A stretch of DNA of 34,150 bases from Candidatus Omnitrophota bacterium (lineage in GTDB: Bacteria; Omnitrophota; Gorgyraeia; Gorgyraeales; Gorgyraeaceae), in the NCBI GenBank assembly GCA_026387235.1, contig JAPLMD010000041.1:1-34150 (forward strand), in the 5' to 3' direction. Made by a program: the position numbers and the translations under genes. The notes beneath the pieces are model-generated. The model saw only the letters and a list, made by a program, of their open reading frames with translations. It ran no database searches and had not been told where the DNA came from. Of this stretch, positions 13,847 through 26,727 are shown piece by piece. The first letter of the stretch is position 1. The number at the start of each line of letters is the position of its first letter.

Positions 13847-13877
13847 AAAATAAGAATTGAATAAATAATATTATATT

Positions 13878-14090
13878 GTATAAGGGAAGCTGATGTGAAT
13901 TCAGCGCAGCCCCGCTGCTGTAATAGGAGCGAAATCTGCGATAAGCCATTGTTCTCGATTCTTTGGGATGAGAAGGCGCAGAGAGTAGGATGCCTTGCCT
14001 CGCATCGAAAAGTTAATATAGGGATGCTCGGCATTGGGTCAAGTTTGTTTGAAAAAACGCCTATAAGCCAGAAAACCTTACGATATATTA
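13878..14090 (+). ncRNA. Cobalamin (AdoCbl) riboswitch
   Basis: Cis-acting leader RNA sensing a cobalamin. The conserved core is seen as AAGGGAAGCTGATGTGAATT (from 13882), CAGCGCAGCCCCGCTGCTGT (13902-13921), and the B12-box-like AAGCCAGAAAACCT near 14067-14080. The stretch 13935-14060 is longer than in minimal versions and holds a peripheral hairpin region. The stem ends overlap the usual peripheral P1/P2 positions. It is followed by an intrinsic terminator and then cobC, so bound cobalamin should switch off the whole downstream operon by premature termination. The 13803-14195 gap contains only this, the promoter and the terminator. Exact edges are approximate. Confidence 0.88.
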
Positions 14091-14145
14091 AGATGTTTAT
14101 TTTCGCTGCGCAGGGCAGCAAAGGGCCAAGTAAAACAGGGTGCAG

Positions 14146-14179
14146 CCCTTGATGCGATTTTTCGCGTCAAGGGTTTTTT
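14146..14179 (+). terminator. Intrinsic terminator (riboswitch expression platform)
   Basis: CCCTTGATGCGA pairs with TCGCGTCAAGGG across a TTTT loop and is followed by TTTTTTG. Its placement between the riboswitch and cobC makes it the likely attenuator. The preceding GGGCCAAG/GGGTGCAGCCC stretch (14124-14148) may form the competing antiterminator. Confidence 0.82.
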
Positions 14180-17131: not shown

Positions 17132-18208
17132 ATGGGATTGCATGGAGGAAATCTTAAAGAGGCGCAGGAGAGGTACTTGTTAAAGAAGGAAGAGATCATT
17201 GATTTCAGCGCCAACATCAATCCGCTGGGTTTTCCCAAAAGCGTTGGTAAAATTATTTCGTCGCATTTAGACGATATCGCGCGTTATCCTGATCCAGACT
17301 GCAAAGATTTAAAAAAGGCGCTTGCCAGCTGCCTCAATGTTTCCGCAGATAATTTATTAATCGGCAACGGGTCAATGGGCCTGATTTTTTCGCTCACCTT
17401 TGCCTTAAAGCCAAAAAGAGCCCTTATTCCTATACCTGCGTTTAGTGAATATGAGAGGGCGGTGCATTTAGCCGGCGGCAGATGCCTTTTTGTAAAAACA
17501 CGCGAAGAAAATGATTTTGCGGTAAATGTAACGGAAATAGTTAAACGCCTCGATTCTGTGGATTTATTATTTATTTGCAACCCTAACAATCCCACGGGAT
17601 TTTTATGGGACAAAGAGGCAATGCGATTTTTAGCTGATAAGTGCGAAAAGAAGGACGTTTTTCTGGTTATTGATGAGGCATTTATGGATTTTGTCGAAGA
17701 AAAGAATGCATCATCTATGGCTGCGGCCAGGCCTTACAAAAAGCATGTTTTGGTATTACGGTCGCTGACCAAATTTTTTGCCCTTGCAGGTTTAAGAATA
17801 GGATACCTGGCGGGAAACAAGAAATTATTGAGCAGGATTTTATCCTATCAGCCGCCCTGGTCGGTGAACGCCTTGGCGCAGATGACTGCCTGCGAAATTA
17901 TCAAAGACTCTGTATTTATCAAAAAAAGCCGGGCATATGTGTTAAAAGAGAGTATTTTTTTATTTAAAGAACTTCAAAAGCTTAAATTCCTGAAACCCTA
18001 TCCAGCGAACGCTAATTTTATATTCTGCAGATTAGAGAATAAAAAGATAAATGCCCGCAGGCTTTGCGATTATTGCGGCACTAAAGGAATACTTATCCGT
18101 GATTGCAGTAATTTTCGGGGATTGGATGACCGTTTTGTAAGGGTTGCGGTAAGAAGAAGAGAAGACAATCTCCGTCTTATTTCTTGCTTGGAAAGAATAT
18201 TCAAATGA
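17132..18208 (+). CDS. cobD: Threonine-phosphate decarboxylase
   Basis: PLP enzyme making (R)-1-amino-2-propanol phosphate, the linker that CbiB attaches to cobyric acid. The ATG at 17132 is preferred over the upstream TTG at 17102: AAGGAG lies 5 bases before it, and it gives the CobD-like N-terminus HGGNLKEAQERY, 358 residues. DFSANINPLGFP, CNPNNPTGFLW, VIDEAFMDFVE and the PLP lysine Lys214 in LTKFFALAGLRIGYLAG are clear. The fold is shared with histidinol-phosphate aminotransferase, but HGGN, NPLG and the operon context favour CobD. No threonine kinase (PduX) is present in the window. Confidence 0.93.
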   Translation: MGLHGGNLKEAQERYLLKKEEIIDFSANINPLGFPKSVGKIISSHLDDIARYPDPDCKDLKKALASCLNVSADNLLIGNGSMGLIFSLTFALKPKRALIPIPAFSEYERAVHLAGGRCLFVKTREENDFAVNVTEIVKRLDSVDLLFICNPNNPTGFLWDKEAMRFLADKCEKKDVFLVIDEAFMDFVEEKNASSMAAARPYKKHVLVLRSLTKFFALAGLRIGYLAGNKKLLSRILSYQPPWSVNALAQMTACEIIKDSVFIKKSRAYVLKESIFLFKELQKLKFLKPYPANANFIFCRLENKKINARRLCDYCGTKGILIRDCSNFRGLDDRFVRVAVRRREDNLRLISCLERIFK

Positions 18209-19716
18209 AAAGTTTACAAATCTGCGGGACAGGTTCCGGCGTAGGCAAGAGCGTAATAGTCAGCGCATTATGCAGGATTTTTCTGCAGGATGGCTATAAG
18301 GTCTGTCCCTTTAAAGCGCAGAATATGGCTTTGAATTCCTTTGTCACAAAAGAGGGCGGTGAAATAGGCAGGGCCCAGGCAGTCCAGGCTCAAGCCTCCA
18401 GAATAGAACCGAGCGTAGATATGAATCCTATATTGATTAAGCCAATCCAGGATACAAAAGCGCAGATAATCTTATGGGGCAGGCCTCAAGGGAATATGTC
18501 AGTAGTCGAATATGCGCGTTATAAAAAAAAGGCAAAAGTAGCCGTCGTGGAGTCTTATAAGCGCCTGGCAGGTGAATATGAACTGGTTGTTATTGAAGGC
18601 GCAGGCTCTCCTAGCGAGGTAAACTTGAAGGCGCACGATATAGTAAATATGTATATGTCTAAAATTGCCGGCGCGCCGGTAATTTTGGTAGGCGATATTG
18701 ACAAAGGCGGAGTTTTTGCTTGGATTGTGGGCACGCTCGAGTTATTGACAAAGGAAGAAAGAAAACGGATAAAAGGCATTATCATCAATAAATTCAGAGG
18801 GGATAAGAGACTGCTGAAATCAGGAATAGATTTCCTGGAGAAAAAAACAGGCATAAAAGTCTTAGCCGTTATACCTTATTTTAAGGATATAAGGATTTCT
18901 GAGGAAGATTCGGTCTCTCTTGAGAAACGAACAGCAAAAATCGAGAGCCGAAAATTAAGAACCGAATTGATAGACATAGCAGTAATTAAGCTGCCGCACA
19001 TGTCCAATTTTACGGACTTTGATGCCTTGGAAAACGAGCCGGATGTCAGGCTGCGCTATGTAACTAGTGAGCGCGAACTGAATAATCCGGATGCGCTGAT
19101 TATCCCCGGGACGAAAAGCACCATAGCGGATTTGAATTACCTGAAAAAATCCGGCCTGGCGGAAAGGATATTGTCGCTTGTCAAAGGTTGTCCCGCGTTT
19201 CATCTAATCGGAATCTGCGGCGGATACCAGATGCTGGGAGAAAAAATTTACGACCGCAAGAAAACAGAATCAGCGCAAGAGGAAGTTAAAGGCATGGGGA
19301 TTCTGTCTGTTGTTACCAGTTTTGAACAGGAAAAGATTTTATCCCAGGTGAAGGCCGTGGAAATAAACTCAGGCCTGAAGGTAACCGGTTATGAGATTCA
19401 TCATGGCAGGACGCAGATACTGAAGGAGCGTAAACCTGTTTTTAAAATTATCGAACGGCAGGGGGAGAAAACAAAAGATGTTGATGGGGTGTTTGCCGAA
19501 AATGGCAGAATCTGGGGCACGTATATCCATGGGGTATTTGATGAGGATAATTTTAGAAGAAATTTTCTGAATAAGCTGAGATTAAAGAAAGGCTGGCCGT
19601 GTTGGCTTGAGACAACGAATTTTAACCCGGATAAAGAATTTGACAAACTTGCCCGGCTTGTCAGGGAGAATATGAATATGGATTTATTGTATAAAATCGT
19701 AGGTTCTGGACTATGA
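18205..19716 (+). CDS. cobQ: Adenosylcobyric acid synthase (glutamine-hydrolysing)
   Basis: Amidates four side chains of adenosylcobyrinic acid a,c-diamide. It has 503 residues from the ATG at 18205, which overlaps the cobD stop (ATGA). It begins with the synthetase domain (ICGTGSGVGKSVIVSALC, FKAQNMALNSFVT), followed by VEGAGSPSEVNL-like VIEGAGSPSEVNL, GDIDKGGVFA and IINKFRGD. The C-terminal class I amidotransferase domain has the nucleophile Cys338 in GICGGYQMLG and His442 in YIHGVFD. It is the earliest corrinoid-pathway step in the cluster, and the ring-building genes are not here. Confidence 0.96.
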   Translation: MKSLQICGTGSGVGKSVIVSALCRIFLQDGYKVCPFKAQNMALNSFVTKEGGEIGRAQAVQAQASRIEPSVDMNPILIKPIQDTKAQIILWGRPQGNMSVVEYARYKKKAKVAVVESYKRLAGEYELVVIEGAGSPSEVNLKAHDIVNMYMSKIAGAPVILVGDIDKGGVFAWIVGTLELLTKEERKRIKGIIINKFRGDKRLLKSGIDFLEKKTGIKVLAVIPYFKDIRISEEDSVSLEKRTAKIESRKLRTELIDIAVIKLPHMSNFTDFDALENEPDVRLRYVTSERELNNPDALIIPGTKSTIADLNYLKKSGLAERILSLVKGCPAFHLIGICGGYQMLGEKIYDRKKTESAQEEVKGMGILSVVTSFEQEKILSQVKAVEINSGLKVTGYEIHHGRTQILKERKPVFKIIERQGEKTKDVDGVFAENGRIWGTYIHGVFDEDNFRRNFLNKLRLKKGWPCWLETTNFNPDKEFDKLARLVRENMNMDLLYKIVGSGL

Positions 19717-20654
19717 GTTATGAATTATTAATTATCCCTCTTGCGTATCTTCTGGATCTGGTTTTTGGCGACCCCGAGTGGCATTGGCATCCGGTAAGGC
19801 TTATCGGGAGGCTGATCGAAAAGCTGGAAAATAAATTAAACTCGGGCAGGGTGAACAAGAAATTCTGCGGGGCCATATTGGTTATCTTGGTGGTTGGGGC
19901 AACTGCTTTTTGCGTCTGGGGGGCATTAAGGTTAGCCAAATTTATCCATCCGTTTTTCTACTATGGCGCTTCTGTATTGTTTATTTATTTTTCACTTTCA
20001 ATCAAGTCCCTGGCAGTTGAGGCAGGCAGGGTTTATAAAGACCTGAAGTCCGGGGATATTCAGAAGGCAAGAGATGATCTTTCCATGATTGTAGGCAGGG
20101 ATACAAAAGGATTAGATGAGCCGGAAATAATCAGGGCATCTGTAGAAACAGTGGCAGAAAGTACCATGGACGGCATAGTTGCGCCTTTGTTCTATGCCTT
20201 TTTAGGAGGCCCTGCGCTGGCATGGGCTTATAAAGCCATAAATACTTTAGACTCTATGGTGGGATACAGAAGCGAAAGATTTATAGAATTTGGCAGGGCA
20301 TCCGCGCTGCTGGATGGGGCGATGAGTTTTATTCCCGCAAAGATAACTTGTTTTTTAATCAGCATCTCCAGCTTTTGTTATGGAAAGGACTGGCTTAACT
20401 CGCTTAAGCAGGGATCGAAATACCTCTTTCAAGGGCCAAAAATTAACAGCGAGTCAACAGAAGCGGCTATGGCAGGAGGCCTTAAGATCCGATTAGGGGG
20501 CGTAAATTTTTATAATTCAGCCCCTATATATAAACCATTTATTGGTGAGGATTTTCAGCCTTTAGCTATTGAACATATTCAAGAGAGTATTCAGATTGCA
20601 TATATATCTTCTGCGCTAATGTTAATTTTAGGGATAACGGTTCTCTATAGATGA
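19713..20654 (+). CDS. cbiB: Adenosylcobinamide-phosphate synthase
   Basis: Integral membrane enzyme attaching aminopropanol or its phosphate to adenosylcobyric acid. It has 313 residues. The N-terminal YLLDLVFGDPEWHWHPVRLIG is the CbiB hallmark. Also seen are VAESTMDGIVAPLFYAFLGGPALAWAYKAINTLDSMVGY and the C-terminal SESTEAAMAGGLKIRLGG. Several hydrophobic spans lie at about 1-20, 55-90 and 290-312. It overlaps cobQ by 4 bases. Confidence 0.95.
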   Translation: MSYELLIIPLAYLLDLVFGDPEWHWHPVRLIGRLIEKLENKLNSGRVNKKFCGAILVILVVGATAFCVWGALRLAKFIHPFFYYGASVLFIYFSLSIKSLAVEAGRVYKDLKSGDIQKARDDLSMIVGRDTKGLDEPEIIRASVETVAESTMDGIVAPLFYAFLGGPALAWAYKAINTLDSMVGYRSERFIEFGRASALLDGAMSFIPAKITCFLISISSFCYGKDWLNSLKQGSKYLFQGPKINSESTEAAMAGGLKIRLGGVNFYNSAPIYKPFIGEDFQPLAIEHIQESIQIAYISSALMLILGITVLYR

Positions 20655-20667
20655 GAGGAGGTTCTGT

Positions 20668-21321
20668 ATGAAAGTCATAGGGCTGTGGAGCGGAGGTAAA
20701 GACAGTTGTTTTGCCTGTTATAAGGCTATGGCTTCAGGTTATGAAGTTTTGGCCCTGTTTAATTTTACACAAGCGGGCGGCGAAGAGTCATTATCCCATG
20801 GCCTGCCTTCAGAAGCTATTCTTAAGCAGGCAGAGCTTACCAAGGTCCCAATTCTACAAAAGGCAATGCCTAAAGAGGTTTACCGCGATGAATTTAAGAA
20901 ATTAATCACTGAGTGGAAAAATAAAGCCGGTATCCGTGGCATTATCTTTGGCGATATATACCTGCAGGAACATAAAGACTGGATTGACAGGGTCTGCCGG
21001 GAACTAGAGGTAGAGGCAATCCTGCCTTTATGGGGCAGGGATACCAAAGAATTAATTCTGGAAATTGTCAATTCCGGTTTTAAAGCCGTAGTGGTCTCAA
21101 CCAGGGCTGATCTTTTAGGCAGGGAATGGCTGGGCCGCAAGGTAGACAAAAGATTTATTAAAGAACTAAGCCCGGAGATTGACCCTTGCGGCGAGAAGGG
21201 TGAATTTCATACCTTTGTCTATGACAGCCCTATTTTTAGAAAACCGGTAGAGTTTGTAACCGGAAAAAAGATGCTGAAAAATAACCATTGGTTTTTAGAG
21301 GTCATATTTAAAGGAAAATGA
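20668..21321 (+). CDS. DUF71/COG2102 PP-loop ATPase, B12-associated type
   Basis: 217 residues, PP-loop ATP pyrophosphatase of the family that includes diphthine-ammonia ligase. The P-loop is WSGGKDSC (7-14). The family motifs are FGDIYLQEHKDWIDRVC, AILPLWGRD and DPCGEKGEFHTFVYDSP. Bacteria do not make diphthamide. Published comparative genomics of this family proposed a B12-salvage role for bacterial members that cluster with B12 genes. Its position here, between cbiB and the transporter genes in a riboswitch-controlled operon, fits that proposal. Amidation of a corrinoid side chain is a possibility, not shown. AGGAGG precedes the ATG. Confidence 0.85.
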   Translation: MKVIGLWSGGKDSCFACYKAMASGYEVLALFNFTQAGGEESLSHGLPSEAILKQAELTKVPILQKAMPKEVYRDEFKKLITEWKNKAGIRGIIFGDIYLQEHKDWIDRVCRELEVEAILPLWGRDTKELILEIVNSGFKAVVVSTRADLLGREWLGRKVDKRFIKELSPEIDPCGEKGEFHTFVYDSPIFRKPVEFVTGKKMLKNNHWFLEVIFKGK

Positions 21322-21324
21322 ACA

Positions 21325-22059
21325 ATGGGAGCTTATCATATAACTTATAGCCCGGAACTTAAAGAGGTTTGTCTTCATTTTGATGCAGGATGTCAATTTC
21401 GCTGCCACGGATGTATTGCTAGATATCATCCCCGGGATTGCCATCTAGAAGAAAAACATAAGCAAGATGAAAACAAGAGTTTATCAATCAAAGAGGTTGT
21501 AGCCTACTTAGAACCGCTGGATTTTAAAAAAACAATTTTTTTAGGCAGGGAACCAACAATGGATCCGGATTTTTTGCCTTTAGCCAGAACTTTAAAAGAA
21601 AAATTTTCTACCCATAACATCCTTCTTACCAATGGCTATAAATACATAACTGAGAAAGCAATAAATGAAGTCTGCGTAGGTATAAAGGCTATTACAAAAG
21701 AGATTTTTAGACGTTTTACCGGCCAAGACAAACCAGAGAAAGTATTGGAGAATTTTAAAAAGCATTATAATTCCTGTATAGTTTTAAGGACAGAAAGTAT
21801 TCTTATTCCCGGTTATATTGATAAAGATGAGATAGAAAAGATAGCAGGTTTTATTGCTAGTATTGATTCGGCGATTCCTTATCGTATAGATGGTTATATC
21901 CCAACAGGCGTTTATTCTTCGGATAAAATCGATATCTTTCGCAGGCCCACTGAAGATGAAATGAGAAAAGTAAAAGAGGCCGCGCAGAAATATCTGAAAA
22001 ACGTGTCCATTCTTCATCAGGGGACGCAACTGAAATATAAAGTTAATGAAATTTATTAA
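21325..22059 (+). CDS. Uncharacterised radical SAM protein in B12 operon
   Basis: 244 residues. The radical SAM cluster motif CQFRCHGC gives Cys23, Cys27 and Cys30. FLGREPTMDPDFLPLARTL (about residues 73-91) corresponds to the glycine-rich SAM-binding GGEP motif. The overall look is of the pyruvate-formate-lyase-activase-like group, small, without an obvious auxiliary-cluster domain or a B12-binding domain. It lies 3 bases after the DUF71 gene and overlaps btuF by 14 bases, so it belongs to the B12 operon. No standard B12 step needs it. Activation of a partner, corrinoid remodelling or lower-ligand chemistry are all possible. Confidence 0.82.
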   Translation: MGAYHITYSPELKEVCLHFDAGCQFRCHGCIARYHPRDCHLEEKHKQDENKSLSIKEVVAYLEPLDFKKTIFLGREPTMDPDFLPLARTLKEKFSTHNILLTNGYKYITEKAINEVCVGIKAITKEIFRRFTGQDKPEKVLENFKKHYNSCIVLRTESILIPGYIDKDEIEKIAGFIASIDSAIPYRIDGYIPTGVYSSDKIDIFRRPTEDEMRKVKEAAQKYLKNVSILHQGTQLKYKVNEIY

Positions 22060-22909
22060 ATTAAGGTCGCTTAATATTATATTCTTCCTTGTTTTGTTAT
22101 TACAGGGAAGTGTCCTTGCCAAAGAAGATTATCCGCAAAGGATTATTTCTCTGGGGCCGGCAATAACCGAAGAACTTTTTCTTCTGGGAGCAGGCGATAG
22201 ATTGGTTGGCTGCACTGTATATTGCCAAAGGCCCGATGAGGCAAAGAAGAAGGAAAAAATCGGCACTGTAATTGAGGTTAATTTGGAAAAAATCGCGGCC
22301 CTTCGACCTGATGTTGTCTTAATGACGCCATTGACGAACTCCAAGGCAAAAGAAAAATTGAAAAATTTAGGGATAAAGGTAATTGAATTTCCCACCGCAA
22401 AAGATTTTAGCGGGATTTGTTCGTCTTTTTTGGAGTTAGGCAGGATTTTGGGCAAAGAAAAAGAAGCGGAAGAAATTGTAAAAATCGCCAGAAATAAAGT
22501 TGATTCTCTGGCACTAAAACTGCGCGGTTTATCGAAGCCAAGAGTTTTTATTCAAGTGGGAGCAAAGCCTCTGGTTACGGTAACCGAAGATTCATTTGCG
22601 AATGATTTCATTGAATTTTCCGGTGGCGTAAATATTGCTAAAGGGATAAGGTATGCCCGTTATTCGAGGGAAAAAGTTCTTGAAGCTAACCCGGAAGTGA
22701 TACTTATTGTGACCATGGGCATTAATGGAGAAAAGGAAAAGGAAGTCTGGCAAAGTTACAAAGCGTTAAAGGCCTCAAGAGACAATAGAATTTATATTCT
22801 TGATTCTTACCGGCTTTGCAGCCCTACGCCGGTAAGTTTTATTGAAACATTGGAAACAATAGCCGGCCTGTTGCACCCGGAAAAAGAATGTAAAGAGGGG
22901 GCGGAGTGA
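22046..22909 (+). CDS. btuF: Cobalamin-type periplasmic binding protein
   Basis: Substrate-binding protein of a BtuCDF corrinoid importer, helical-backbone class. It has 287 residues with a Sec signal peptide (about 1-25, NIIFFLVLLLQGSVLA) and no lipobox cysteine, so it should be soluble in the periplasm. RIISLGPAITEELFLLGAGDRLVG, IGTVIEVNLEKIAALRPDVVL and the C-terminal lobe IEFSGGVNIAKG are typical. Fe-siderophore binding proteins share the fold. The B12 assignment rests on the operon, the riboswitch and the adjacent btuC-btuD-btuB order. Confidence 0.9.
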   Translation: MKFIKLRSLNIIFFLVLLLQGSVLAKEDYPQRIISLGPAITEELFLLGAGDRLVGCTVYCQRPDEAKKKEKIGTVIEVNLEKIAALRPDVVLMTPLTNSKAKEKLKNLGIKVIEFPTAKDFSGICSSFLELGRILGKEKEAEEIVKIARNKVDSLALKLRGLSKPRVFIQVGAKPLVTVTEDSFANDFIEFSGGVNIAKGIRYARYSREKVLEANPEVILIVTMGINGEKEKEVWQSYKALKASRDNRIYILDSYRLCSPTPVSFIETLETIAGLLHPEKECKEGAE

Positions 22910-23907
22910 ATAAGAAATTAGTTAATTGGATTTTTTGGGTATTAATGCTAGGCGGGATACTTTTATGCGTGGTTATTTTTTCTTTAGCGATTGGTCCTGC
23001 GGGAATACCTATTAAGAAAATTATTCCAATACTTCTAGAGGGGAAAGGCACTGTTGAATATAATATTCTCTTTGATATCCGCCTGCCGCGCATTATTCTG
23101 GGTTTTGCCATCGGCGGTAGCCTAAGCCTGGCAGGAATAATTCTACAAGGGATGTTCCGTAACCCCCTGGTTGAGCCGTATACGCTAGGTATTTCCGGAG
23201 GAGCGGCATTAGGCGTATCCTTGAATATTATCTTTGGGTTGTATAAGATAGGCGTCCTGACATTACCTTTTTTTGGCTTTTTAGGAGCGGCGGCAGTCAT
23301 AATGCTGGTGTATTTTTTGAACATGAGAAAAGGCATAGTAAAACTCCAGGGATTACTTTTGAACGGCGTGATGATTAGTTTTATATCTTCTTCCTTAATT
23401 ATGCTTATTATGTCTTTATCGCGCAGTGAAGATCTTCATGGGATTGTATTCTGGATAATGGGATCCTTGGAGGAGCCGGATTGGGCTATTATTAAAGTAA
23501 CGGTTTCGGCGGCCATTATCCTTCTTATTATTTCCCATCTATTTTGTCTTGATCTTAATGCATTTTCCCTGGGAGAAGAAGAGGCGCTGCATCTTGGTAT
23601 ATCTATAGAGAGAACCAAGCGGTTGCTTTTCATTATCGCTTCTTTACTTACAGGTTTTAGCGTTTCTGTAGCTGGCATGATTGGGTTTGTCGGTTTGGTC
23701 GTGCCGCATTTTGTCAGGATGTTTGTGGGCAGTGATCATCGAATATCGCTGATAGCTGCATTTTTAGCCGGAGGGGCATTTTTAATCTTTTGTGATACAT
23801 TGGCCAGAACAATTATTGCTCCTCTGGAATTGCCTGTCGGGGTTATTACCGGAATATTGGGAGGCAGTCTTTTTGTCTATGCGTTGACTAAGAGAGAAGT
23901 TCATTGA
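22906..23907 (+). CDS. btuC: Corrinoid ABC transporter permease
   Basis: FecCD/BtuC permease of 333 residues with around ten hydrophobic spans. Conserved stretches are FDIRLPRIILGFAIGGSLSLAG, MFRNPLVEPYTLGISGGAALG, SVAGMIGFVGLVVPHFVR and ELPVGVITGILGGSLFVYAL. A GTG start at 22906 overlaps the btuF stop, preceded by GAGGGGGCGG. It works with BtuD as the inner-membrane pore for corrinoids delivered by BtuF. Confidence 0.93.
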   Translation: MNKKLVNWIFWVLMLGGILLCVVIFSLAIGPAGIPIKKIIPILLEGKGTVEYNILFDIRLPRIILGFAIGGSLSLAGIILQGMFRNPLVEPYTLGISGGAALGVSLNIIFGLYKIGVLTLPFFGFLGAAAVIMLVYFLNMRKGIVKLQGLLLNGVMISFISSSLIMLIMSLSRSEDLHGIVFWIMGSLEEPDWAIIKVTVSAAIILLIISHLFCLDLNAFSLGEEEALHLGISIERTKRLLFIIASLLTGFSVSVAGMIGFVGLVVPHFVRMFVGSDHRISLIAAFLAGGAFLIFCDTLARTIIAPLELPVGVITGILGGSLFVYALTKREVH

Positions 23908-23917
23908 GGAGAGATTG

Positions 23918-24721
23918 ATGCTTAAGATAAAAAATTTAACGTGCGGATACGGCACAAAGATTGTGCTTTACGATATCAGTTTTAATATAGATAGGGGTGA
24001 ATTTTTGGGAATCATCGGGCCTAACGGCTCAGGTAAAACCACGCTCCTGCGCGCTCTCTCGCGGGCCATTGCGCCAATGAAAGGAGAGATCCTTGTGGAA
24101 GGGAAGGATATCCGGACGGCGCCGCTAAAGAAGTTAGCAAAAACTATTGCTGTGGTTTCGCAAAACCCGCCTTTAAATCATATGACCGTAGAAGAATTTG
24201 TCCTTTTGGGAAGGATTCCCCATTACCAGAGATTCCAGTTTCTCGAGGCAAAGAAAGACTTGGAAATTGCCGGGCGGTCTATGGATTTAACCGGCATCTT
24301 TAAGCTTAAAGATCAGTCTTTAAGTCAAATCAGTGGAGGAGAAAGGCAGCTTGTTCTCATTGCCCGCGCGCTCGCGCAGGAACCCAGAGTACTTCTGCTG
24401 GATGAACCGACCGCGCACCTGGATATAGCCCATCAGGTAGGAATCTTGGATCTTGTAAAGAAGTTGAATAAAGAGTTTGGACTTACGGTAATTATGGTTC
24501 TGCATGACCTGAATTTAGCCAGTGAATACTGCCAGAAACTTCTGCTTATTAACAAGGGCCGAATCCATAAAATGGGGCGGTCCGATGAAGTGCTTGATTA
24601 TCAAACTATCGAGGAGGTTTATAAAACAATAGTTGTGGTTGGAAAAAATCCCTTATCTTCCAAGCCTTACATATTGCTGGTTTCTGAAGAAGAAAGGCAA
24701 AAGAGAAAAAGACCATGCTGA
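23918..24721 (+). CDS. btuD: Corrinoid ABC transporter ATPase
   Basis: ATP-binding subunit, 267 residues from the ATG at 23918, chosen over a TTG one codon earlier because GAGGAGAG ends 5 bases before it. Walker A GPNGSGKTT is at 34-42, followed by the Q-loop, the signature ISGGERQ, Walker B VLLLDEPTAHLD and the switch histidine in MVLHDLNLA. The BtuD/FecE subfamily is clear; B12 specificity comes from context. Its end overlaps the btuB start by 7 bases. Confidence 0.93.
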   Translation: MLKIKNLTCGYGTKIVLYDISFNIDRGEFLGIIGPNGSGKTTLLRALSRAIAPMKGEILVEGKDIRTAPLKKLAKTIAVVSQNPPLNHMTVEEFVLLGRIPHYQRFQFLEAKKDLEIAGRSMDLTGIFKLKDQSLSQISGGERQLVLIARALAQEPRVLLLDEPTAHLDIAHQVGILDLVKKLNKEFGLTVIMVLHDLNLASEYCQKLLLINKGRIHKMGRSDEVLDYQTIEEVYKTIVVVGKNPLSSKPYILLVSEEERQKRKRPC

Positions 24722-26727
24722 GAAAATTGATTTTAATAAGCATATTGATTGCAATGGTGGCCAAAGGGGTATTGGCTGAAGAAAAACAAGATACTGCGGA
24801 CGACAATGTTATTTTAGAGCCGATAATAGTGACGGCCTCCAGAACAGAAAGAAGGTTATCAGAGGTTTCTTCCAGCGTAAGTATTATTCCAGAAAAAGAA
24901 ATCAGAGATACAAATGCCAGGAGCGTTCCGGATCTCTTGAGGGATATAGAAGGTGTTTATACGGATGATTCTTCCGGAGTAGGAACGACAGGTAGAGTCA
25001 ATATGCGCGGTTTTTGGGGCGGCATGTCGACGCACCAGCTAGTGCTTGTTGACGGGATACCCCAGAATAAAGGCAAAGATAAGCTTGTTGATTGGGATCT
25101 TATTCCTTTGGATAATATTGAGAGCGTGGAGGTATTAAAAGGGCCTGCTTCCAGCCTCTATGGCGATAATGCTATGTCCGGAGTAATTAATATAATAACT
25201 AAGAAACCCGGGCCTGTTCCACAGGCGAGAATCTCCTCTTCTTACGGAAGCTTTAATACCCAAAATTATGAAGGGTCTATATCAGGTCGTTCCGTCAAAG
25301 GCGGAATTGCTTACAATTTAATCGCCAGCAGAAAATCAACAGATGGTTTTCGAAGGCACTGCGATTATGAAGGCAGTCATCTAAACGGAAAGTTAGATTT
25401 TTTAATAGATGAGACGCAGCGTTTAGGTTTATCTATGGATTATCATGATAGAAAAAGAGGCGCCTTGCCTTGGGCTTTAACAGAAGTTCAGATTGCACAG
25501 GATAGACGTCAAGCGCGGCCAGGCACAGAAAATGACAAAGAGGATGCGATAAAAGCTGATATAAACATAGACTATAATAAAAAAATGGATACAATAGCTC
25601 CTTCTAGCATCGCGAACACATTTTATTATAGATATGATGATAGCAAGGCTTTTTATACAAGCGGATCAACTGCCGCATCCACAAAAGAGCAGCTTGGAAA
25701 CGAAGACACATATGGCTTGCTCTTGCGCTATAATATAAATCCAGAGGTGTTCAGATTGGGCCATTTTCTTACTGCCGGGATTGATCTGGAAAGAAATAGT
25801 TTTGATTATAAAGAGTACGCCGCGCCTTATCAGTTAAGAGGGGCGCTCTCGAGCGATTATAATGTCATAAGAGACAAAGTCGGTCCGTATCTTCAGGATG
25901 AGATTAAATTATTTGAACCTCTTAGATTTATAATAGGTTATCGTTACGATTCCGTAACGCTTGATTTTAATGACACCAGGAATAACGCTAATTCAAAAAA
26001 CAAAGATATGTCCCAATTTACCCCGCATTATGGAATAGTATATACTTATCAAAAAGATTCTAATGTTTACGCAAATTACGGCCAGGCTTTCAGAACTCCT
26101 ACTATAGGTCAAATGTTTACTTACACTACTGGTGCCAATCCTGATTTAAATCCTGAAGAAGCAAAAAACTACGAGGCTGGGATGCGTCACCGTTTCAATG
26201 ATCATCTGAAGGCGAATATCAGCTTATATTGGATGGGGCTCGATAACGAGATTTGGTATGATTATGCAGCAAAGAAATATAATAATTACAGCAAGACCTC
26301 TCATAAAGGGGTAGAAACAAGCCTTGACTTTAAAATCATTGAAGGATTAACGGGATTTGTGAATTACGCTTATACAAGAGCCAAGAATGAAAATGGGACA
26401 GATGCAGGCAAATATTTGACCAACATTCCTACGCATAAAGGGAGCCTCTCGCTAAAGGGCGAGACGAAATTCGGACTGGGAGCAAGTCTTGTCGTCACGA
26501 GGATGGGTAGTTCGTACATAGATTCCGCAAACAACGATAAGTTTTCCAGTTACACTACCGTAGATACAAAAATTGCTTATGAGCATAAATGGTGGTCTGT
26601 GTTTTTGGCGGTAGACAATCTTTTGAATAAAAAATACAATTCTTATGGATATAAAAACGGCGCTGTGAAATATTTTAATCCTGCTCAGGCAAGAGCCTTT
26701 ACCAGCGGAATAAAATTAACTTTTTAG
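24715..26727 (+). CDS. btuB: TonB-dependent outer-membrane corrinoid receptor
   Basis: 670 residues. The signal peptide is about 1-21 (LILISILIAMVAKGVLA). A TonB box lies in ILEPIIVTASRTERR near 33-47. The plug domain follows with IRDTNARSVPDLLRDIEGVY, RGFWGG and VLVDGIPQNKG, up to SSLYGDNAMSGVINIITKKPG. A C-terminal 22-strand barrel follows with FRTPTIGQMF, LNPEEAKNYEAG and a terminal aromatic F (KLTF). It is the last gene of the B12 operon and overlaps btuD, so cobalamin-type ligands are the likely cargo. The sequence itself would also allow another TonB substrate. Confidence 0.9.
   Translation: MLRKLILISILIAMVAKGVLAEEKQDTADDNVILEPIIVTASRTERRLSEVSSSVSIIPEKEIRDTNARSVPDLLRDIEGVYTDDSSGVGTTGRVNMRGFWGGMSTHQLVLVDGIPQNKGKDKLVDWDLIPLDNIESVEVLKGPASSLYGDNAMSGVINIITKKPGPVPQARISSSYGSFNTQNYEGSISGRSVKGGIAYNLIASRKSTDGFRRHCDYEGSHLNGKLDFLIDETQRLGLSMDYHDRKRGALPWALTEVQIAQDRRQARPGTENDKEDAIKADINIDYNKKMDTIAPSSIANTFYYRYDDSKAFYTSGSTAASTKEQLGNEDTYGLLLRYNINPEVFRLGHFLTAGIDLERNSFDYKEYAAPYQLRGALSSDYNVIRDKVGPYLQDEIKLFEPLRFIIGYRYDSVTLDFNDTRNNANSKNKDMSQFTPHYGIVYTYQKDSNVYANYGQAFRTPTIGQMFTYTTGANPDLNPEEAKNYEAGMRHRFNDHLKANISLYWMGLDNEIWYDYAAKKYNNYSKTSHKGVETSLDFKIIEGLTGFVNYAYTRAKNENGTDAGKYLTNIPTHKGSLSLKGETKFGLGASLVVTRMGSSYIDSANNDKFSSYTTVDTKIAYEHKWWSVFLAVDNLLNKKYNSYGYKNGAVKYFNPAQARAFTSGIKLTF

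Follow-up and report, generated by a model that had tools for sequence, protein, structure and literature searches.

The DUF71 family of PP-loop ATPases has been split by a short motif that reads EGGExE in Dph6 and ENGEF/YH in the DUF71-B12 proteins (de Crecy-Lagard 2012, PMC3541065). For bacteria, the same work reported a strict exclusion of CbiZ by DUF71-B12 and left the role of the latter open (PMC3541065), and a term search of that paper finds no radical SAM partner named. The known cobamide remodelling enzymes CbiZ and CbiR act on imported cobamides and are encoded beside genes for B12 rebuilding or import, though importer genes adjoin only some of the CbiZ and CbiR genes (PMC7733943). 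The setting of our locus, a salvage operon with DUF71-B12 and btuFCD, is known, and the radical SAM accessory within it is new; no description of its subfamily was found in the open-access literature searched.

We analyzed a stretch of 34,150 nucleotides from a Candidatus Omnitrophota bacterium (the window), whose B12 operon includes the following features:

13860-14098, forward strand: cobalamin riboswitch (RF00174) leading the operon, 76.3 bits against a gathering score of 31.5
14144-14175, forward strand: terminator-like hairpin in the interval between riboswitch and cobC, 14 pairs followed by a T run
18184-19716, forward strand: cobQ/cbiP, cobyric acid synthase (NF001989, 627 bits, above cut-off)
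19713-20654, forward strand: cbiB, adenosylcobinamide-phosphate synthase (TIGR00380, 204 bits, above cut-off; 304 bits in another profile match)
20668-21321, forward strand: DUF71-B12 PP-loop ATPase (PF01902, 181 bits against a cut-off of 23; motif EKGEFH)
21325-22059, forward strand: radical SAM protein of 244 aa (PF04055, 50.5 bits; CxxxCxxC)
22046-22909, forward strand: btuF, corrinoid-binding protein (PF01497, 108 bits)
22906-23907, forward strand: btuC, permease (top match vitamin B12 permease BtuC, 262 bits, below the model cut-off)
23915-24721, forward strand: btuD, ATPase (top match corrinoid ABC transporter ATPase, 243 bits, below cut-off)
24715-26727, forward strand: btuB-like TonB-dependent receptor (PF00593, 183 bits), whose specificity for corrinoids would follow from its gene context

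The genes run in one direction and without a break in the order cobC-cobU-cobT-cobS-cobD-cobQ-cbiB-DUF71-radical SAM-btuF-btuC-btuD-btuB. As the first-pass annotation had described, the DUF71 and radical SAM genes lie between cbiB and btuFCDB, with a spacer of exactly 3 bases (ACA) from stop to start, and the whole unit is led by a riboswitch, given that the RF00174 match precedes the uninterrupted run from cobC to btuB. The hairpin is probably the expression platform of this riboswitch. From btuF (22046) over btuC (22906) and btuD (23915) to btuB (24715), neighboring genes overlap or are at most 8 bases apart, and this spacing, the sole basis for the view, suggests that cobC to btuB form one transcript.

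The salvage setting proposed in the initial annotation was borne out at the level of the genome. CbiC is absent from all nine genomes tested, and only a single TP-methylase is encoded in the window's genome, probably the ribosomal RNA enzyme RsmI; the missing CbiC and the single methylase together mark this bacterium as a corrinoid salvager that is apparently unable to make vitamin B12, and de novo synthesis was discarded because CbiC and the methylase set are missing. Even so, cobQ (18184-19716, cobyric acid synthase) is kept in this genome without CbiC, and a lone CbiE-like methyltransferase gene lies beside the radical SAM gene in two relatives (L020:2826-3491 and L069:10989-11657), the second of which likewise comes from a genome without CbiC. 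We also note that cobQ and an asparagine-synthase-like gene exclude each other operon by operon: the latter is found without cobQ at L009, L010, L021, L069, L078, L084 and L100, and cobQ is found without the latter in the window, L011, L070 and L118, while genome G038 has one operon of either kind, as if one amide-forming enzyme were replacing the other.

The DUF71 protein of the window carries the motif EKGEFH and thus the DUF71-B12 signature, which rules out a Dph6 identity. All DUF71 proteins of the operons studied show the pattern ExGE[FY]H, and those of three archaeal genomes, taken as a control, show the Dph6-type EGGE[YF]E. DUF71-B12 proteins are also recognized by adjacency to btu genes or cbiB, and here cbiB lies upstream in the same run and btuF one gene downstream, so that the window's protein resembles the described ones in motif, in neighbors and in its salvage setting. 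Its earlier assignment as a bacterial DUF71 of the B12 kind is therefore well founded, as far as motif and neighborhood can tell. Across the phylum, DUF71 was found in 124 of 384 genomes, and the best 30 of its loci all have B12 surroundings (30/30), most commonly in the order cobT-cobS-DUF71-btuB.

Although the window's genome has no CbiZ, the strict bacterial exclusion reported in 2012 does not hold in three bacterial genomes (G402, G403 and G404) that carry both DUF71 and CbiZ (PF01955). The two are adjacent within an operon in G402 and G403, and a CbiZ gene directly 3' of DUF71 was seen in bacterial operons at L022:3520-4257 and L024:2328-3086. Since both proteins occur together in three genomes, it is unlikely that DUF71 simply takes the place of CbiZ, and their side-by-side placement weakens the view that one merely replaces the other.

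The second protein belongs to the radical SAM superfamily, as indicated by its CxxxCxxC motif, the PF04055 match of 50.5 bits and a confident structure model whose nearest folds are radical SAM enzymes. Its cluster motif, CQFRCHGC at residues 23-30, is nearly invariant across the family. A search of the PDB with the single sequence gave no relative, and the curated activase profiles scored far below their cut-offs (YjjW 38 of 250 bits, PFLA 34 of 232, NrdG 29 of 126), as did the MoaA profile. The model, built from 17 natural homologues (pLDDT 86.6, pTM 0.85), comes closest to the PFL-activating enzyme (PDB 3c8f, TM 0.67), followed by NifB, MoaA and viperin, a set of neighbors that suggests a generic predicted fold. 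The PFL-activating enzyme shares overall fold, about equal length and the CxxxCxxC motif with our protein but only 16% identity; where it has acidic residues ahead of TNG and within LDLK, the bacterial core members of the family carry L/I and S/G, respectively (profile alignment). In addition, the glycyl-radical domain PF01228, which excludes NrdD, is absent from 15 of the 17 genomes with the radical SAM gene, including that of the window, making a PFL-type activase role unlikely; together with the scores below cut-off, this led us to reject a glycyl-radical activase.

We also considered CbpB (TIGR04163), which is likewise a radical SAM enzyme of B12 operons and is in part found in the very same ones, yet is a protein of about 458 aa with a SPASM domain and a peptide partner, whereas our protein has 244 aa, no SPASM domain and no peptide partner that we could see. 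TIGR04163 (cut-off 375 bits) gives no match to the radical SAM protein, and its best match in the window's genome, elsewhere, reaches 34 bits. With CbpB above cut-off in four of nine genomes tested and lacking from the window's, the CbpA/CbpB peptide system is ruled out as a general partner. Several relatives do combine the CbpB radical SAM/SPASM maturase with a CbpA precursor and an asparagine-synthase-like protein in their B12 operons (L009:7303-9811, L010:6229-8740, L021:2277-4932, L022:324-2855 and L069:7017-9560); the CbpA precursor of L021 has 38 aa (TIGR04164, 40 bits) and includes ...KKCKASGTGLSHYVLEKK.

Sequence-only searches and a maximum-likelihood tree defined a clade of 19 members including the window, composed of 17 core members and two outer ones (L071 and L035). 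Core members occur in Omnitrophota, Nitrospirota, Aquificota, Pseudomonadota, unplaced bacteria and two archaea, and all 17 are located inside btuF/btuC/btuD operons, though this core set is small, comes from MAGs and is partly redundant with three near-identical pairs. As these members were found regardless of their context, chance does not explain why the radical SAM gene is found among B12 genes. The subfamily thus sits in the import operons of corrinoid salvagers, near genes for nucleotide-loop rebuilding, and the concern raised initially, that it might generally be found away from B12 genes and have a known function, did not materialize. The neighborhood survey suggested in the first-pass annotation hence gave repeated pairing with btu genes, among which btuF is the most constant and directly adjoins the radical SAM gene in 14 of 17 cases, but a weaker pairing with DUF71, which is present in 11 of the 17 operons and an immediate neighbor in six. 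The outer members adjoin genes of ECF transporters, including a CbiQ-like component. Relatives beyond the clade, the majority of them from methane-oxidising archaea (ANME and others), have mostly non-B12 neighborhoods with one YcaO gene and one cbiB-like gene among them; we therefore rejected a B12 role for these relatives and confine our claim about B12 uptake to the clade, which passes the neighborhood test, whereas a family delimited too broadly would not.

Other genes were observed around these loci. A second radical SAM family, rSAM2, is separate and has a B12 clade of five entries, all in B12 operons (5/5; L009:5761-6624, L022:4254-5138, L024:3058-3915, L026:212-1069 and L046:9920-10813) and often beside a divergent btuF-like gene. 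Genes for a TrpD-like phosphoribosyltransferase and an alcohol-dehydrogenase-like protein lie between the btuF-like and radical SAM genes at L026:1849-4025 and L027:525-2653, and a Shedu (SduA_C) defence-like gene is found a few hundred bases 3' of DUF71 at L056:9542-10678.

A member of the same genus, G006, has the operon without the radical SAM gene, and its DUF71 and btuF genes overlap instead. Protein identity between the window and this congener is 83-95% for cobT, cobS, cobD, cobQ, cbiB, DUF71, btuF, btuC and btuD, with btuB and tonB as the shared genes outside this range, and the radical SAM gene is missing from all other genomes that we searched within the genus and family. With 35.4% GC (29% at third positions), the gene is also poorer in GC than its neighbors (38-44%) and its surroundings (about 42%). 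Recent gain in the window's lineage would be the simplest reading of these comparisons; as base composition alone is weak evidence, loss elsewhere is a possible alternative. The difference between the two congeners is accompanied by a swap of the receptor, given that the btuB-like gene at 24715-26727 and its counterpart at L117:3930-5858 share only 31% identity next to operon genes with 83-95%. A tie between the radical SAM gene and one type of outer-membrane receptor was considered and dropped, with the association being partial only.

We favor, at a probability of about 0.55, a reading of the radical SAM protein as an enzyme accessory to corrinoid uptake and salvage whose gene moves horizontally. 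BtuFCD would import a corrinoid, on which a 5'-deoxyadenosyl radical may then act at the nucleotide loop, linker, side chain or lower ligand, so that a form otherwise useless to the cell could feed into the cobyric acid/cobinamide route (CobQ-CobD-CbiB-CobU-CobS-CobT). The DUF71-B12 protein would provide a separate, core ATP-dependent step of salvage, whether or not the radical SAM enzyme is present. That the latter acts on the incoming corrinoid is suggested by the two unrelated importer types beside which it is found (BtuFCD, and ECF in L071 and L035), which have the imported molecule in common. A functional parallel with CbiZ and CbiR is possible by analogy, as these share the neighborhood of B12 import and rebuilding genes, though they are hydrolases and the radical SAM protein has an unrelated fold. 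More tentatively, it could be a first radical SAM step of cobamide remodelling, an oxygen-sensitive cutter or modifier of nucleotide loop, linker or side chain that serves as a mobile add-on to BtuFCD.

The first-pass annotation had instead proposed one joint remodelling step in which the DUF71 ATPase forms an amide and the radical SAM enzyme acts on a side chain or the lower ligand. Immediate adjacency in six loci and a common operon in 11 of 17 speak for such a partnership, as does an enrichment of DUF71 among the phylum's radical SAM genomes (6/8 versus 118/376; p 0.016, kinship ignored). This proposal nevertheless is not supported by the wider comparison and now seems improbable: 118 of the 124 DUF71 genomes of the phylum are without the radical SAM gene, so DUF71 occurs, and presumably works, alone; the congener keeps DUF71 in an operon without it; and of the two complete salvage operons in G038, one contains rSAM2, the radical SAM gene and the CbpA/CbpB peptide system, while the other has DUF71 and none of these. 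Furthermore, in both archaea that carry the radical SAM gene, the only DUF71 is of the Dph6 type. Three more genomes (G086, G105 and G405) have no DUF71 above cut-off but were discounted because their contigs break at the radical SAM operon. We propose that the adjacency stems from the location of the radical SAM gene at the junction of DUF71 and btuF and not from mutual need, and that this gene is probably a mobile accessory working on imported corrinoids rather than half of a joint step.

An enzyme that acts on the lower ligand base and not on the corrin, for example one that synthesizes or modifies a benzimidazole, purine or phenolic base, would suit anaerobic salvagers with CobT, CobU and CobS, which require such a base, and TrpD-like phosphoribosyltransferase genes adjoin the radical SAM gene in two Aquificota loci; we consider this doubtful, however, as the gene nearly always lies among importer genes rather than with cobT. 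The genome context fits a corrinoid substrate and a protein substrate alike, and modification of BtuF, of a further protein from the operon or of an activase target could draw on the closeness to the PFL-activating enzyme (TM 0.67), the modified-peptide pair CbpA/CbpB in the operons of some relatives and the similar pairing of rSAM2 with BtuF-like genes. We nevertheless regard a protein or peptide target as unlikely, since PF01228 is lacking in 15 of 17 genomes (with NrdD outside the search), CbpB exceeds its cut-off in a minority of the genomes tested to which the window's does not belong, and BtuF is exported. That the gene is a mere passenger without a role in B12 metabolism would agree with its AT-richness and its absence from congeners but is very hard to reconcile with its identical operon placement in unrelated phyla.

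Taken as an accessory enzyme of corrinoid uptake and salvage, the radical SAM protein bears on the sharing of B12-like cofactors among uncultured anaerobes, which is poorly known and for which a subfamily confined to importer operons offers a concrete, testable enzyme. The pair of operons with and without the gene in a single genus makes its effect on the range of corrinoids testable as well.
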